DNA of 20,047 nucleotides from a virus: IMG/VR virus record IMGVR_UViG_3300033146_005306, positions 1 to 20,047 of that record, one strand, 5' to 3'. Below, piece after piece: positions 6,037 to 18,087 of this stretch. The translations under genes and the position numbers were made by a program. The notes under the pieces were generated by a model, which saw nothing but the letters and a program-made list of their open reading frames with translations, was not told the origin of the DNA and searched no databases. How positions within the stretch are numbered: position 1 is the first letter of the stretch; each line of letters starts with the position of its first letter.

Positions 6037-7770
6037 CTAGAACTCGTCGTCAAAGGCCCCTATGCCGATTTCCCCATAGATCCCGTCCCAAGCGCCGTGG
6101 GCTGCGTTGCCCTCGACTATATCATCTTCATCTGAGGCGGCGCGGTAGGTGAACGCGCCCTTTCTGAGCACGGTCTCTGCGATCCATAGGGCCATAACGG
6201 TGTCGTCGTGAAGCTCGCGCCCAAGGGCCCAAAGCTCTTGGATCATCACCCCCACCCGCTGCTTGTCGCTGTCGAGCCTGGAAGGGAAAACCACCTTTCC
6301 CGCTTCAAAGAGGCCGCGGAGGGATGGAACACCATCCCAGTAATCCGCCTTCTTCTTGGTGGTGAGGTGCCCTTTGATCGGAAGATCTGTCGTCTTCTGT
6401 AGCCCGATGTAGTGCAGCTCTCCGAACGCGTTTCGCTCAACTGCAACGGCATGAACGCGTCCCAGCCCCCCGAACTTCTGAAACTCAGCGAGGACCGCAC
6501 CCCTGATCCCGCTAGGACTTAGACCTCTGATCCTCTTGAGCCCCAGGAGATAGCGATCCCCGTTAGCGTCGCGCCCCCATGTAATGCCGACCGTATAATC
6601 TGAATCTTGGGAAGCAGCTTTGGCGGGGTCAGTCACAAGAGAGAAGTCCCAGCCCTGAACAATCTCGAGCCCCTTTACCCCTTCTGGGATCGAGTCGAGC
6701 GAGAGGTGAGCGCCTCGGTCCTGCGCTCGCTGGAGCCACTCCATTTTGAATGGTGCGGAGCTGTCATCCTGAACTTGGTGTTGAAACTCGCGAGCGAAGA
6801 CTAGGGGCGTGATCTCGTCGCGTTCTTCGAGGAGGTACTCAATCGGTCGGTGCTGCGGCCAGAGAACCTTAGAAGGGCCGACCACATCAACCCCAGTGAC
6901 GATCTCCTTTTGAAGCTCAGGGTCATACTCTTTGATAATCGAGTGATCTTCCGGCCACTGGATGATCGCGGGGTCTTCAATCACCCGCCAAGATGCGCGG
7001 CGGGAGAGGTGCCCATACAGATCATCGTGGTGTTTGCGCGTGCCGATAATGATGAACGTGCCTCCTGGTGAGAGCATCGGCGTAACGGTCCCGTTGAACC
7101 ATCCGCGCGTCTTAGCCCGCCCCGCGATTGAGAGCGTGGTTTTATCCGATTCGAGGTCATCACAAAGGATGAGATCGAAGTGCCCGCCCGTGATCGCCCC
7201 ACCCGACCCCACAGCCTCAATCGAGGGGTCCACGCTTTTTCTGAGCCTCTGAACATAGATCGCGGTCTGAGTCCAGCGCGCTGCGTCTTCTTTGCCGCTG
7301 GCCTTGAACGGGAGACATCCGGCCTCGGGCTCGCTCGCCCAGTCCTCCACGATGCGTGGAGACTTCAAAAGAGAGGAGATCCTCTGCAAGCGTTTCTTGC
7401 CCACCTCGGCGGACTCTGAGATCCAAAGGATCCGAATATCTCGATCCTTGCAGAGCTCGCGCAGAGCGATAGTGATCGTTAACTCTGTTTTCCCGTGGTC
7501 ACGGGGGGCTAGGAGCAAGAGCCTGTTCTTGCGCTGTCCGTCCCGCCGCGCGTTGTCGATTGTCCGCGTCGCGATACTGAGCCACCTATCCCGGTGCGCA
7601 GCTCGCCACATTCCGCAGTAGTAGGTGTCGAAGAAGGTCGGGCTTGCCGCTGCAAGGCTGCGCCGCCCTGCGGGAGTTGACACCAACTCTGCCGCAAAAG
7701 CTGTCGCGTCCTCGGGTGAATGGTTTGCCTGTGGTGCGCTCAAGGTGTGGCCTCTCGTCTGTGGTAACAT
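6037..7770 (-). CDS. Terminase large subunit (packaging ATPase-nuclease)
   Basis: A 577-residue DNA-packaging motor. The ATPase domain has Walker A APRDHGKT at 88-95, Walker B FDLILCDD at about 198-205, and a coupling motif around GGTFIIIGTRKHHDD (236-250). The C-terminal RNase H-like nuclease shows the expected acidic residues: D375 in QGWDFSLVTD, E445 in AVERNAFG and D522/D523 in HDDTVMALW. It cuts concatemeric DNA and pumps it through the portal. The ATG at 7770 has no Shine-Dalgarno sequence, whereas a TTG at 7743 (nine codons in) has AGAGG 7 nt upstream, so the true start may be 7743. The call is firm. Confidence 0.92.
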   Translation of the reverse strand: MLPQTRGHTLSAPQANHSPEDATAFAAELVSTPAGRRSLAAASPTFFDTYYCGMWRAAHRDRWLSIATRTIDNARRDGQRKNRLLLLAPRDHGKTELTITIALRELCKDRDIRILWISESAEVGKKRLQRISSLLKSPRIVEDWASEPEAGCLPFKASGKEDAARWTQTAIYVQRLRKSVDPSIEAVGSGGAITGGHFDLILCDDLESDKTTLSIAGRAKTRGWFNGTVTPMLSPGGTFIIIGTRKHHDDLYGHLSRRASWRVIEDPAIIQWPEDHSIIKEYDPELQKEIVTGVDVVGPSKVLWPQHRPIEYLLEERDEITPLVFAREFQHQVQDDSSAPFKMEWLQRAQDRGAHLSLDSIPEGVKGLEIVQGWDFSLVTDPAKAASQDSDYTVGITWGRDANGDRYLLGLKRIRGLSPSGIRGAVLAEFQKFGGLGRVHAVAVERNAFGELHYIGLQKTTDLPIKGHLTTKKKADYWDGVPSLRGLFEAGKVVFPSRLDSDKQRVGVMIQELWALGRELHDDTVMALWIAETVLRKGAFTYRAASDEDDIVEGNAAHGAWDGIYGEIGIGAFDDEF

Positions 7771-7816: not shown

Positions 7817-8191
7817 ATGAACCTAACCAGCGCCAAAAGCAGTATTACCCGCGCGATCAAGCGGGCGATGAGCTCAACAGAGATCGACGTTAACCCCATG
7901 ACGATCTTAGGTGAGAAGGTCAAGGTTGAGATCCACCCACCCAAGAAGGGCAAGGAAGAGGCCAGGGTCTACATCGACTGCGCCGCACGAGGGGTGCGCG
8001 CCCTCGCCCACGCAGACTTTGAATCGGCCTCTGAGGCTTCGGCTGCGCTCGTCGCGGAGTTTGAGGGGGATGAGGTGAAGGCGAGCAAGGCCAGCGAGGC
8101 GCTGGGGGTGAAGCGGGAAGAGGCGCGCGTGAGGCGCGCGAAGCGCCTAGCCGTCAAGCGTGGGGAAGGATCCCAGGCTATAGCTCTCTAA
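7817..8191 (+). CDS. Hypothetical basic protein, lone plus-strand gene
   Basis: A 124-residue protein starting at ATG 7817 (MNLTSAKSSITRAIKRAM) with AAGG 5 nt upstream. The frame is open further upstream to 7625, but that part is antisense to the terminase and has no ribosome site. The protein is Ala/Lys/Glu-rich: a basic N-terminus, a short beta-looking middle (VKVEIHPPKK...ARVYIDCAARG) and a C-terminal helix rich in Lys/Arg (EARVRRAKRLAVKRG). I do not recognise the family. It diverges from the terminase, and its last 45 bp overlap the 3' end of the recombinase-like gene on the other strand. Confidence 0.6.
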   Translation: MNLTSAKSSITRAIKRAMSSTEIDVNPMTILGEKVKVEIHPPKKGKEEARVYIDCAARGVRALAHADFESASEASAALVAEFEGDEVKASKASEALGVKREEARVRRAKRLAVKRGEGSQAIAL

Positions 8192-9193
8192 CAAGTCCTG
8201 GTGAGTGTAATAGTTTTTGACGATGTGGCTTAATCCTCGAGCCGTCCAAGCGCGGCCCTTCCTGTTGACTGAGCCGCTCACCCGCTCCAACACATCAGCC
8301 CACTTGAGCCCCTCTGCGCGGAGGTCTATCACGCGAAGCGTAAACTCAAGCTCGTCGGGCTTTGGGATAAGGCGCCCTCCGAGCCGCCTGAACCCCCAAG
8401 GCCCCATCTTGGGAATCGCGCGCCCGACCTCCCCGCCTGCGAGCTTGGCGCGCTCGTATTTGGTGGAGAGATCCGAAGAGTGAGCCCAGGGCTTTCCGTT
8501 CCTGCGCTTGAGCCCCTTCTCATTGAGCAGCCTTAAAATATCAACCCAGCGCGCGCCCGCGTCGCGCTCCTTTACGATGAGCGCGAGGGTCGCCGCTTCC
8601 TGCTCATCAACGACGGCGGCGGAACCGTCCCACCTCCACCCGTAGGGAAGGCGACCGCTCCTATTCCCCAGGAGCGGTACTGCCGCGCGGGCTGCCACAG
8701 AGACCTCGGCAACCGCGCTGAGGGCAAGCCCCGCTGCGTTGTCTTTATGGATGAAGAGGCCCCGTACGCCGGGAGCTTTAGCCCCTACGAGGCGACGCCC
8801 CCCTGTCTCATAGTTGGAGATGTAGACGCCCCCCAGGGACCGAGAAATCTCCGCCGCGGCCTCATCCACGGTCACGAAGAGATCTGAGAGTGCCCGCATG
8901 ACCAGCGGAGAGCCCGCGCGGAGGGCCTTGAGCACGCAGGCGCGCCCCTCCCTTGCCCCTGGGGCGGTCTTTATGTCGTCGAGATAGAGCGCGAAGGGTG
9001 GTGCGAAGTGGAGGTTATCCTCTGCATAGATACAGAGGGCCTCTTGGGCGTCCTCGAAGATGCTCGCTCGCTCACCTTTTGCGCGGAGCAGGTAGAGCAC
9101 GGGCGGGGGCGGGGGCGGGGGCGCTGGCTTGCGAGGCTTGGGCTTTCGGTCAGGGAATGGTGGAGGGGGGAGGCTGTCGGGTTGGGTTGCCAT
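8147..9193 (-). CDS. Degenerate serine-recombinase-like protein with two recombinase-type domains
   Basis: A 348-residue protein; ATG with GAAGG 8 nt upstream. After a Pro-rich tail (1-31), residues 32-128 follow the outline of a serine resolvase catalytic domain (Y-L-L-R, then LYLDDIKTAPGAREG like the D-x-SG-RPG stretch, then GGVYISNYE). The catalytic Ser position appears to be Lys (K39 in LLRAK), and the D-R-L-x-R stretch reads SDLFVT, so strand cleavage is not expected. Residues 181-248 match the helical Recombinase domain that follows the catalytic domain in large serine recombinases (LPYGWRWDG...VVDEQEA...LNEKGLKRRNGKPW); residues 264-330 look like a second copy (GPWGFRRLGG...WADVLERV...GRAWTARG). 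A DNA-binding, non-catalytic role is likely; what it binds is unknown. Confidence 0.65.
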   Translation of the reverse strand: MATQPDSLPPPPFPDRKPKPRKPAPPPPPPPVLYLLRAKGERASIFEDAQEALCIYAEDNLHFAPPFALYLDDIKTAPGAREGRACVLKALRAGSPLVMRALSDLFVTVDEAAAEISRSLGGVYISNYETGGRRLVGAKAPGVRGLFIHKDNAAGLALSAVAEVSVAARAAVPLLGNRSGRLPYGWRWDGSAAVVDEQEAATLALIVKERDAGARWVDILRLLNEKGLKRRNGKPWAHSSDLSTKYERAKLAGGEVGRAIPKMGPWGFRRLGGRLIPKPDELEFTLRVIDLRAEGLKWADVLERVSGSVNRKGRAWTARGLSHIVKNYYTHQDLLESYSLGSFPTLDG

Positions 9194-9201
9194 TGATTAA
9201 G

Positions 9202-9242
9202 CCTTCGCCCCCTAAGCGGGGGGCTTGCCTGTAGGTTGAGCC
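9202..9242 (-). promoter_or_regulatory. Leader element copy 1: ACAGGCAA plus C6/G5 hairpin
   Basis: On the minus strand GGCTCAAC, then ACAGGCAAG, then a six-C run pairing with five G across a short loop, directly before the GAAGG ribosome site of the recombinase-like gene. A close copy precedes the next upstream gene at 9627-9667. The hairpin abuts the ribosome site and could affect translation. Confidence 0.5.
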
Positions 9243-9259: not shown

Positions 9260-9295
9260 AAAAAAAGCCCGCCGCGGCATGATGCCAGGGCGGGC
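9260..9295 (-). terminator. Rho-independent terminator
   Basis: On the minus strand a GCCCGCC arm (9289-9295) pairs perfectly with GGCGGGC (9267-9273). Inside it a second stem, GGCAT with ATGCC, closes a one-base loop. Seven T follow at once (9260-9266 read as A on the plus strand). This ends transcription of the 101-residue gene and separates it from the recombinase-like gene. Confidence 0.85.
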
Positions 9296-9626: not shown

Positions 9627-9667
9627 CTTCTCCGCCCCCCCAAAGGGGGGCTTGCCTGTGTTGAGCC
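9627..9667 (-). promoter_or_regulatory. Leader element copy 2: ACAGGCAA plus C6/G7 hairpin
   Basis: The minus strand carries GGCTCAACACAGGCAAG, then a six-C run pairing with seven G over AAA/TTT, then GGAG just before the ATG at 9623. It is nearly identical to the element at 9202-9242. Confidence 0.5.
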
Positions 9668-9858: not shown

Positions 9859-10398
9859 TCAAACGCCCGAATCGCGAAACCCACTCACCCCGTAAATCAA
9901 CCGAGGGGCCTCATTTTCGACAGGATAGGGGCTCTCAACCACTACCGCGCCCGGCGCATCAGAGAGAGCACGCCACAGGAAGATCGCGAGGTGCGATGGG
10001 CACGCAGACCTGATCAGGATGCCAGGGAGAGCCCGCGCTGCTGCAAGGTAGAGGGCCCTTCCTATCCCCTGTCGCCTATACTCGGGGAGAACCCACGCTG
10101 CGCGGACCATGAAGAGACGAGGGCAGAGAGAGCGGCCCGTGTTATCCACAATCTCACGAGCTGAGACCCCCCCGAGCTTTGCACCGTTGCCGTGCTCACA
10201 GAGCCCCTCTCGCGCCTCTACATCCACGCCAACGCCTAGGGTTACGGTCCACAGAGGTTGGAGCCTACACGGCTCAAAATGGGCAACGGTGAGTTGGGGG
10301 CGCGGCAAACTTGGGCGTTTAATCGAGAAGGGGGAGGCTTCACCACAGGGGAGGGGGAAGGGTGCCGTTTCGAGGTAGAAGCTGGATATCTCCTGCAT
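9859..10398 (-). CDS. GNAT-family N-acetyltransferase
   Basis: A 179-residue protein from the ATG at 10398, which has AAGGGG 6 nt upstream; a longer frame to 10509 crosses a large inverted repeat and is unlikely. The GNAT acetyl-CoA motif A is clear near residues 97-122: MVRAAWVLPEYRRQGIGRALYL, with RRQGIG as the pyrophosphate-binding loop. The N-terminal 40 residues are Pro-rich. Phage GNAT proteins can acetylate host proteins, small molecules or modified DNA bases; the substrate cannot be read here. It is preceded by a 13-bp stem-loop that may regulate it. Confidence 0.7.
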   Translation of the reverse strand: MQEISSFYLETAPFPLPCGEASPFSIKRPSLPRPQLTVAHFEPCRLQPLWTVTLGVGVDVEAREGLCEHGNGAKLGGVSAREIVDNTGRSLCPRLFMVRAAWVLPEYRRQGIGRALYLAAARALPGILIRSACPSHLAIFLWRALSDAPGAVVVESPYPVENEAPRLIYGVSGFRDSGV

Positions 10399-10417
10399 CG
10401 GGCGCCCCTTAAACAAG

Positions 10418-10473
10418 AAACCCTCTCCGCTTGGGTGGACAGCTTTAGGAGGTACTGACCGCGGAGAGGGTTT
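10418..10473. repeat. 13-bp perfect inverted repeat with 30-nt loop
   Basis: AAACCCTCTCCGC (10418-10430) pairs perfectly with GCGGAGAGGGTTT (10461-10473). On the minus strand the second arm runs into TTTCTTGTTT, a weak terminator-like tail, about 20 nt before the GNAT start. It may end the 364-residue gene's transcript, act as an attenuator for the GNAT gene, or bind a protein; the 30-nt loop is long for a plain terminator. Confidence 0.55.
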
Positions 10474-10554
10474 AACCCCACAGGCAAAAATGGAGACCTC
10501 ACCTACCAAGAATGGGGAGAGGCAGGACGATTAGATCACGCGGCGTTGATCTGG

Positions 10555-11649
10555 TCAAGCGCCATCATCGCGGGCGGCTGCGGCTGCGGTCTTTTCAGCC
10601 TCATTGTCCTCTTGAACGAGATCAGCCTCTAGAGTGAGCTGTGCGCGTGAGGCTTTAACGTCCTCCTGTGCTTTGTCAGAGAAAACCGAGGCGAGTTGAT
10701 CCCCGATGGCCGCGAGGCGATCAACGTCGAGCCCGAACTTCTCCGCCGCCTCAAGCGGGGTTATCCGCGGAGCCGAGGATCCTGATACCTGCGTGTTGAC
10801 GATCTGCGTGTTTGAGATCGTGAACTGAGACGCTTCAGCTTTCAGATCAACGCCGAGTAGTGCAGCTTGGCGAGCCCCCGCCTTAACGATCATTCCCATG
10901 AACGCTGTGCGCTCTTTCGGGTCTAAGAACTGCGACCCATCATAGGCCGCGTCAAGCTCTGCGAAAGCGAGCCGCTTCACGCGCTCCATGTCATCATAAA
11001 GAGCCCGCCGCGCCCCGTGTCGGTGGTCTTCATCCCATATCTCAGCATCGCGCCGTTTTGCCCTCCTGAGGAAATCTTGGGCGCGCTGCACATGAACATC
11101 AGGATCAGCGAGGATCTTCTGGAAAAACGGAGCCTTTATGTCAGCGTCTACCTGGAGAACCAAGAACGCGGTGTCAATGAGGGGCTCAAGCTCCTCAAGG
11201 CTCAGGCGCGGGTGTCCGACCTCAGCCCTGATCTCCGCAATCGAAGGGGGGCGCTTGATCGAATCGAAGGGCTTTCTGAGGAAATCTGTTCGAGGATCCA
11301 TTAGCGCCCGCCGCTCCTCGGCTGAAAGGATGTACCGTACCCCCCCTCGAGGACCGGGAGATCTCACCTGCGTTTCATTATTATGCAAAACACCTGAACG
11401 CTCGGCCAGCCCATCGCCGCCAATGTGCTTCAGATTGTCTTGTTTGCCCGTAGGCTGCACACACGGCTTACCCTCAACAGGCTCAACAGAGACCCCCTCA
11501 GACTGCGAGACGGGGGGCTCGATGTCCGCGCTGGAGTGCTTCCTGGGCTGCTTCTGCGCCTTGTCCCGCTTGGCTTGGGCCTTGGGCTTGGTGGCCTTCG
11601 CGCTGGCCTTCTTTGGCTTAGGGGCTGATTTGGCGCGTGGCTTTGTCAT
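10555..11649 (-). CDS. DNA-associated phage protein, possible terminase small subunit
   Basis: A 364-residue protein, ATG start. The first 40 residues are Lys/Ala/Pro-rich like a DNA-binding tail, followed by a low-complexity stretch to about 95. The body is helical, with a motif near residues 265-290 (KERTAFMGMIVKAGARQAALLGVD) that resembles the helical segment of some phage small terminases, and a C-terminal acidic/Ala tail. A small terminase recognises the packaging site and recruits the large subunit. Here the large-subunit gene is about 3 kb further on, so this is a tentative reading. Otherwise it is an unknown nucleic-acid-binding protein. Its start overlaps a possible small gene (ATGA). 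Confidence 0.6.
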   Translation of the reverse strand: MTKPRAKSAPKPKKASAKATKPKAQAKRDKAQKQPRKHSSADIEPPVSQSEGVSVEPVEGKPCVQPTGKQDNLKHIGGDGLAERSGVLHNNETQVRSPGPRGGVRYILSAEERRALMDPRTDFLRKPFDSIKRPPSIAEIRAEVGHPRLSLEELEPLIDTAFLVLQVDADIKAPFFQKILADPDVHVQRAQDFLRRAKRRDAEIWDEDHRHGARRALYDDMERVKRLAFAELDAAYDGSQFLDPKERTAFMGMIVKAGARQAALLGVDLKAEASQFTISNTQIVNTQVSGSSAPRITPLEAAEKFGLDVDRLAAIGDQLASVFSDKAQEDVKASRAQLTLEADLVQEDNEAEKTAAAAARDDGA

Positions 11650-16629: not shown

Positions 16630-18087
16630 ATGGCAAACACCGGGGTTGAGCAAAAGGGCCGATTCGGGCGCCTCATGGGGGCCACCTTCCGGTCCAAGCT
16701 AGGGCGCCGAGACAAGATGGTCTTGATGGCGATTATCACGCTGGCCGGAGATGACGGCGTGTGCCGCTACGGGAAAAAAGCAATCTCCGATCTGACTGAG
16801 TACGACCGCAAAACCATAGGGCGTTCTCTTGCGGTCCTGAGACGCCTCGGGTTGATCGATGAGGTCAAGGGGGCGCAGTCCTGGTTCCCCTCGTCTAGAG
16901 TGTTAAAGGTCGCCGAAATTGAGGCGTTGAGAGCCCGAGACGTTGAGGGATACGCGGAGATCGTCGAGGAGCAGGCGGCTGCCATAAACCCAAAGCGTAA
17001 GCGCCTCACCAAAGCCGAACGTAGCGAAAGAGCCAAAGCCCGCGCGGCGGCGCGGGCAACCAAAAATAAGGCTGAGAGGGCCCTAGGTGGGGACACAGTG
17101 TCCCTAGGTGGGGACACAGTGTCCCTAGGTGGGGACACAGTGTCCCTAGGTGGGGACACAGTGTCCCTAGGTGGGGACACAGTGTCCCTACCCTGGGGAC
17201 ACAGTGTCCCTACCCTGGGTGCCGAAAACCCTAGTGCCCCTACGCACACACGCGCGCGCTCTTTTTCTGACTCTGTATCTGACTCTGTATCTGACTCTGT
17301 ATCTGACTCTGTATCTGACGAAGGCGGGGCGGCGGGCGGCTTGGGCCAGGAAGCTCTAGAGGGGCTTGTTTTCTGGGCTAAGACGCTCAAGGTGAGGAAG
17401 TCAGACCAGACCAGAAGCGCGAACCCGAGCACGACAAAGGGAGATGTCCGCCTTAGTGCTCTGCGCTGGTTTCTAGAAAACACCCCCGACCGTAGCCTCT
17501 TAAACGTGAAGCTCGGCTGCCTGGGTTGCAAAGTGAAGATCGCCCGACAGCGCGCGGACAACTTCAACCCAGGGGCGACCTATGACGAGCTCACCCGCAT
17601 TGTCGCCGACCGGGACAGCCTTGATATGCACTCGAAGCACCTACTCACCCCGTCGTCAGTAATCCCGACGCCGGGAGAACTGGAACTTGAGGATTTGGCC
17701 TCAACGCCCGAGGGCTTGGACACGTTGAGGGCTCACGCCGAGGAGTTGGCAACCCGCGCTCAGACTCGTGAGCCATATCGCCCGGCCCGCACACGAAGCC
17801 AAGGGGGAGGTCGCCAGAGCAACCGAACCGGGATCAGGGCGCAATTCACCGACGAGCAGCGACGAGGGTTCCTGTCGCTGGTCGCGAACGGATCAAAGCC
17901 TCTCGACGGAGAGATCACCGCACGCGAGGCCGCTGACCTCGGGGTTTCACGCCAAGAGATGTTGAGAGCCTATGAAGGCGGGGCAGATGCGCGGGCGCGC
18001 GTGCTGGAGGCTCGCGCGAAAACCGAGGCCGACTTAGAAGCCGAGGCCGATGAGATTTGGGGCTCTGCCGCTAAAGCCTGGCGATAA
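16630..18087 (+). CDS. Phage replication initiator (lambda O-like role) with internal origin
   Basis: A 485-residue protein with a strong AGGAGG site 7 nt before its ATG. Residues 20-90 form a winged helix of the kind in phage replication proteins (RRDKMVLMAIITLA...GKKAISDLTEYDRKTIGRSLAVLRRLGLIDEV). A basic linker follows (about 118-150), then a repeat region: five LGGDTVS units (about 152-186) and a Ser-Asp-Ser-Val repeat (about 215-232). These are the translations of DNA repeats that look like an origin. The rest (240-485) has a Cys pair (GCLGC) and helical, charged sequence and probably contacts the helicase or loader. The next gene is a DnaC-like loader, the order seen in lambda (O then P). 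Function is inferred from this architecture. Confidence 0.75.
   Translation: MANTGVEQKGRFGRLMGATFRSKLGRRDKMVLMAIITLAGDDGVCRYGKKAISDLTEYDRKTIGRSLAVLRRLGLIDEVKGAQSWFPSSRVLKVAEIEALRARDVEGYAEIVEEQAAAINPKRKRLTKAERSERAKARAAARATKNKAERALGGDTVSLGGDTVSLGGDTVSLGGDTVSLGGDTVSLPWGHSVPTLGAENPSAPTHTRARSFSDSVSDSVSDSVSDSVSDEGGAAGGLGQEALEGLVFWAKTLKVRKSDQTRSANPSTTKGDVRLSALRWFLENTPDRSLLNVKLGCLGCKVKIARQRADNFNPGATYDELTRIVADRDSLDMHSKHLLTPSSVIPTPGELELEDLASTPEGLDTLRAHAEELATRAQTREPYRPARTRSQGGGRQSNRTGIRAQFTDEQRRGFLSLVANGSKPLDGEITAREAADLGVSRQEMLRAYEGGADARARVLEARAKTEADLEAEADEIWGSAAKAWR
17081..17210 (+). repeat. Iteron array, putative replication origin
   Basis: Five exact 21-bp tandem units (17081-17185) and a sixth 22-bp variant (17186-17207). 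Each carries the core GGGGACACAGTGTCCC, palindromic around a central A (cores at 17089, 17110, 17131, 17152, 17173 and 17195). The 21-bp period keeps the initiator reading frame. Iterons inside the initiator gene match the layout of lambda ori within O. Probable binding sites of the protein encoded around them. Confidence 0.75.
17266..17319 (+). repeat. 12-bp tandem repeats, putative origin unwinding element
   Basis: TCTGACTCTGTA is repeated four times exactly (17266-17313) plus a half unit. It is locally lower in G+C than its surroundings and starts 56 bp after the last iteron core. Repeats beside iterons often mark the DNA-unwinding region of an origin. The 12-bp period encodes SDSV units and keeps the frame. 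Confidence 0.6.

Follow-up and report, generated by a model that had tools for sequence, protein, structure and literature searches.

What is a recombinase-related protein doing a few hundred bases ahead of a phage terminase gene if it lacks the motifs with which serine recombinases cut DNA? The question is raised by the window analysed here, a stretch of 20,047 bases that makes up an entire virus record and carries genes for a portal, TerL, a DnaB-type helicase and a DnaC-like loader; no tRNA and no Rfam family were detected in it. Read in its own frame, the gene of interest (Table 1) has a codon score of 0.23 log2 units per codon, resembling that of the neighbouring genes, against at most 0.04 in the other five frames, and both its coordinates and its gene-like codon use bear out the open reading frame that a preliminary description had placed at 8147-9193. 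We infer that its 348-aa product is a non-catalytic protein related to recombinases that would bind DNA, most likely as a regulator, and we give this reading a probability of roughly 0.55.

Table 1. Features of the packaging region and of the 348-aa protein in the window
Feature	Position	Strand	Basis or remark
TerL (terminase large subunit)	6037..7770	minus	PHROG_38, E 2e-71; PF17289
124-aa ORF, convergent with the gene and overlapping its 3' end	7817..8191	plus	High codon score
Gene for the 348-aa protein	8147..9193 (stop codon included)	minus	Codon use, PF07508, PHROG_95
RD2, residues 265-316	8246..8401	minus	17.9 bits, internal repeat, confident part of the model
RD1, residues 178-236	8486..8662	minus	40.5 bits, HHalign, structure match to the Bxb1 RD
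N-terminal region (residues 31-177) where a catalytic domain would be expected	8663..9103	minus	Ancestry weakly supported; motifs absent
Proline-rich N-terminal tail, about residues 8-31	9101..9172	minus	Sequence
Leader hairpin with ribosome-binding site, 30 bases	9203..9232	minus	Copy at 9630-9659
Terminator-like hairpin, then seven U	9260..9295	minus	z -1.92; 6/200 shuffles fold as well
TerS-like gene	10555..11649	minus	Location; resembles the L103/L104 protein

The relation to recombinases is seen in the C-terminal part of the protein, where we find two recombinase-type DNA-binding domains (RDs) in tandem. Pfam Recombinase PF07508 matches residues 197-240, exceeding its cut-off, and PHROG_95 (integrase) matches the protein in two stretches with an E value of 3.9e-11. 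With a profile made from RDs of 23 phage recombinases, RD1 scores 40.5 bits and RD2 17.9 bits when the C-terminal part is the query, and 38.8 and 16.2 bits when the query is the whole protein, for which HHalign reports an RD match of 97.3% over residues 167-240. The repeat is also visible internally, as the alignment of residues 171-256 with residues 257-340 scores 66, against 26 +/- 5 for shuffled sequences, the best of which scored 54 (0/2000 reached 66). Each RD retains nine of 15 conserved positions, which 9/400 and 15/400 shuffles achieved, respectively, and both are confident parts of an AlphaFold model (pLDDT blocks of about 80-97) whose alignment included 21 recombinase relatives. In structure, the modelled RD1 resembles the RDs of integrases, including Bxb1 (9iub_D: Z 7.3; 75 residues with an rmsd of 2.6). 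A duplicated Recombinase domain had been proposed at residues 181-248 and 264-330, and tandem domains of the PF07508 type are indeed present. Single RDs of other phages are nearer to RD1 and to RD2 than these two are to one another. Because RD1 and RD2 are not each other's best match, RD2 may go back to an old duplication or may have been added as a separate domain.

The residues needed for catalysis are missing. The 23 aligned relatives show Y-x-R-x-S and D-R..R, with small exceptions in single sequences, and neither motif is found in the 348-aa protein: S44 is the sole Ser within residues 28-60, the aligned nucleophile position is K39, with R37 and Q50 falling on the conserved R and Q, and the sole D-R dipeptide lies at residue 15, in the proline-rich tail. 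Given that there is neither a Ser nucleophile motif nor a D-R motif, serine-recombinase chemistry is absent under any reasonable alignment, and the loss of catalytic residues that had been noticed earlier, with Lys at the nucleophile place, stands. Since the cutting chemistry is absent and the RDs are present, the protein probably only binds DNA; it would do so through its recombinase-related part, being unable to cut or join it. Large serine integrases such as Bxb1 and A118/LI have the RD fold in common with the window protein and, as an excerpt of PMC3783163 describes, an RD-zinc ribbon layout. The window protein differs from them in having no catalytic motifs and, after its RDs, no zinc ribbon with coiled coil, as its chain stops 32 residues past RD2 and contains two cysteines in total, both in the N-terminal part; a second RD is found instead.

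Whether the N-terminal region descends from a resolvase domain is a separate question. The claim that residues 32-128 keep the outline of the resolvase fold was not confirmed by the profile comparisons: a catalytic-domain HMM scores residues 28-140 at -0.8, with 273 of 1570 reported shuffles equally good, HHalign of the N-terminal part gives a probability of 0.4%, and 19 of 51 conserved positions are kept, compared with 17.0 +/- 2.8 in shuffles. Predicted structure is of little help, as AlphaFold without an alignment reaches a pLDDT of only 40.5 over residues 28-178, too poor to use. With recombinases in the alignment, the region starts as strand-helix-strand-helix at a pLDDT of about 50-69 and falls below 50 over residues 94-161 (model residues 67-134), a result that is circular. 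The same circularity affects the N-terminal part in a Foldseek search with this model, where the top matches are serine integrases (best E 1.5e-2), and the viral structure matches, again headed by recombinases (best E 1.1e-3), are not independent support. Weak support comes from a global alignment of residues 31-177 anchored on RD1, which is mildly above chance (Z 2.8) and was equalled by 14/3000 shuffles and by 7/721 native windows, a set from which seven windows scoring at least 100 had been dropped beforehand as true recombinases; residues 31-140 alone give a Z of 1.95. The length is also as expected for a recombinase, with 147 residues against 150 profile positions.

Resolvase ancestry of residues 31-177 is thus plausible but unproven, and it is quite possible, at somewhat short of even odds, that the region was never a resolvase and that an unrelated domain became fused to two RDs, which is compatible with a DNA-binding function. 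The lack of any profile match over residues 28-177 and the poor AlphaFold result would follow from such a fusion, and so would the RD-like stretches that occur without a resolvase domain in related phages, namely in G013, G021, G034 and a second ORF of G038, those in the last three being below the Pfam cut-off. Against it, the length and the anchored alignment fit a recombinase origin, as does the start of the recombinase-aligned model, with the circularity already mentioned. In the loci L088 (G034) and L091 (G038), the single sub-cut-off stretch lies in frames of 1156 and 1182 codons, respectively, that resemble a helicase or primase. Either way, the region, as a decayed or a replaced catalytic domain, would serve at most for self-association.

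Comparison with related phages places the protein among several kinds of RD-containing proteins. The relatives of the window's TerL comprise 80 virus loci and one MAG titled Deltaproteobacteria (L083). Recombinase domains were searched for in 50 of the 80 virus loci, and PF07508 was found at E 0.1 in six of these 50 (over the cut-off in four) and the resolvase domain in four. In one relative, L075 (the same as L103), and its near twin L104, the interval from a TerS-like gene to TerL contains the gene for a single-RD serine recombinase whose motifs are intact. The same interval is therefore occupied by an apparently working recombinase in L103/L104 and by the non-catalytic protein in the window. 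In L075, an HNH endonuclease gene (L075:5220-5816) directly follows the serine recombinase, ahead of TerL. The recombinase of L103 belongs with those of L105 and L116 to a kind of small phage serine recombinase (PF00239 and one RD; PHROG_95/125 in L103) that has its RD family in common with the window protein and of which one member sits in the same TerS-TerL interval, but these enzymes retain Y-x-R-x-S and D-R..R, whereas the window protein has neither motif and two RDs. The RDs closest to those of the window come from phages other than L103/L104.

Two RDs in one protein are not peculiar to the window. L050 and L052 each encode a recombinase that keeps its motifs and carries two RDs. The L050 protein (330 aa) resembles the window protein in having two tandem RDs after an N-terminal domain and differs from it in that its catalytic domain is intact by motif (Pfam Resolvase, E 1.5e-29) and its gene is found some 7 kb upstream of TerL. 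The second RD of the L050 protein has closer counterparts among the single RDs of other phages than in RD2 of the window. In G013 (L087), a protein of 210 aa contains two PF07508 stretches but lacks a catalytic domain; it is like the window protein in both respects and different in its N-terminal half. RDs thus do occur in non-recombinase proteins of these phages.

None of the scans yielded an orthologue. The whole protein, the C-terminal half and the N-terminal part were each used in pattern scans of viral_contigs, which brought up no orthologue, and a pattern scan of genome_contigs was equally negative; 377 genomes of one phylum gave only three matches, each of them in the RD of a serine recombinase whose motifs are intact, and 16 genomes of one order and one MAG gave no orthologue. 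The N-terminal part had no orthologue in 10 phage records, and tblastn matches in phages (10 records) and plasmids (six) were confined to the RD region. As baits, the portal gave no match and the L050 recombinase returned only its own two records. PADLOC models had no match to the protein at E 0.1. Our literature searches listed no paper on a natural non-catalytic relative of serine recombinases in a phage, nor on a catalytically dead one beside a terminase; the excerpt of PMC8190038 that they yielded concerns an unusual TerS and is not relevant to the 348-aa protein.

As no orthologue was found in any scan, the gene may be a decaying, functionless recombinase gene that has stayed open by chance. 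The chance-level retention of conserved positions in the catalytic part and the apparently intact recombinase at the same position in a relative would be expected in that case, but 348 open codons, gene-like codon use and a leader of its own would not, nor would RD positions conserved above chance in both copies and RDs that are confidently modelled. We therefore consider decay unlikely.

The neighbourhood of the gene, some 380 bases upstream of TerL and on the same strand, had suggested another use, the recognition of the packaging site. For example, the protein could assist or replace TerS in marking that site through its two RDs. RD1 does align with a TerS structure from a phage, in its helical domain (6ejq_B; Z 6.4 and rmsd 3.3 across 57), but this may simply be a common arrangement of helices, and the 348-aa protein has no match to a TerS family in Pfam or PHROG. 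A distinct TerS-like gene also exists in the window; its product matches the protein at the same position in L103/L104 with an E value of about 3e-7, and neither it nor its L103 counterpart has a Pfam or PHROG match. A terminator-like hairpin sits between an upstream 101-aa ORF and the gene, and this hairpin together with the gene's own leader points to separate transcription; on the other side, an ORF on the opposite strand lies between the gene and TerL. The hairpins at 9203-9232 and 9630-9659, which directly precede two neighbouring start codons, are 83% alike, with 14 consecutive bases identical. An ORF resembling a GNAT acetyltransferase, for which Acetyltransf_1 is barely over its cut-off, lies at 9859-10509 on the minus strand between the TerS-like gene and TerL.

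Small serine recombinases do lie just upstream of TerL more often than expected from random placement. We collected 30 recombinase loci and located TerL in 22 records, from which the 19 with a small recombinase were counted, excluding L129, L130 and L132, whose large integrases lie far from TerL. In six of the 19, the recombinase lies on the TerL strand and at most 2 kb upstream of that gene, against 1.1 expected at random (P 0.0003); the count is 4/17 without L103 and L104 (0.86 expected, P 0.007) and 6/22 with the three large integrases included. These P values are rough, since L103 and L104 are nearly identical, L103 was obtained via its TerL, several records are short fragments and there is shared ancestry. 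The proximity is thus a lead and no proof of a packaging role. In one locus (G447:C1:24127-25515), the TerL match contains eight in-frame TGA codons, perhaps indicating a recoded phage.

PF07508 is lacking at E 0.1 in 44 of the 50 TerL-related records, and the distance between TerS and TerL, in the loci where both genes were located, is anywhere from about 0.3 to 8 kb, a variability that suits a slot for cargo. The proposal of packaging-site recognition is accordingly not supported, given the separate TerS-like gene, the terminator-like hairpin and the intervening plus-strand ORF, and an aid to packaging seems to us distinctly improbable. We are more doubtful still of the fuller scenario in which the protein began as a recombinase encoded between TerS and TerL, was deprived of its chemistry, acquired another RD and now recognises the packaging site together with the packaging machinery. 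The separate TerS-like gene, the hairpin, the plus-strand ORF and the variable interval suit a separately transcribed cargo gene.

The retention of RDs with loss of catalysis could also be explained if the protein bound and blocked the recombination sites used by the serine recombinases of competing elements. Recombinases with intact motifs are present in related phages, but there is none among the ORFs of the window scanned with Pfam and PHROG, and we regard such an antagonist as very unlikely.

The regulatory reading thus remains the one that we prefer. Reuse as a DNA-binding protein, which the preliminary description had also suggested, is probable, since the protein cannot carry out catalysis and has an additional DNA-binding domain of the recombinase type. 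In the mechanism that we envisage, the two RDs would grip one extended DNA site, the protein would regulate phage or host DNA in a sequence-specific manner, and its gene would be separately transcribed cargo within a variable stretch of the packaging region. Inspection of repeats and promoters in the window recognised no convincing binding site and no operator-like set of repeats. Elsewhere in the window, an ORF resembling a replication protein (16630-18087) contains in-frame tandem repeats of 21 bases (17081-17190) and 12 bases (17259-17319) that yield repeated LGGDTVS and SDSV peptides.

The neighbourhood of small serine recombinases and TerL recurs in distant phages. If the packaging reading were true, the window would represent a later stage of an association between recombinase and terminase that recurs in several phage groups. 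If the protein binds DNA, as we consider probable, this would show that the RD, in duplicate, can be put to new use as a DNA reader in its own right.
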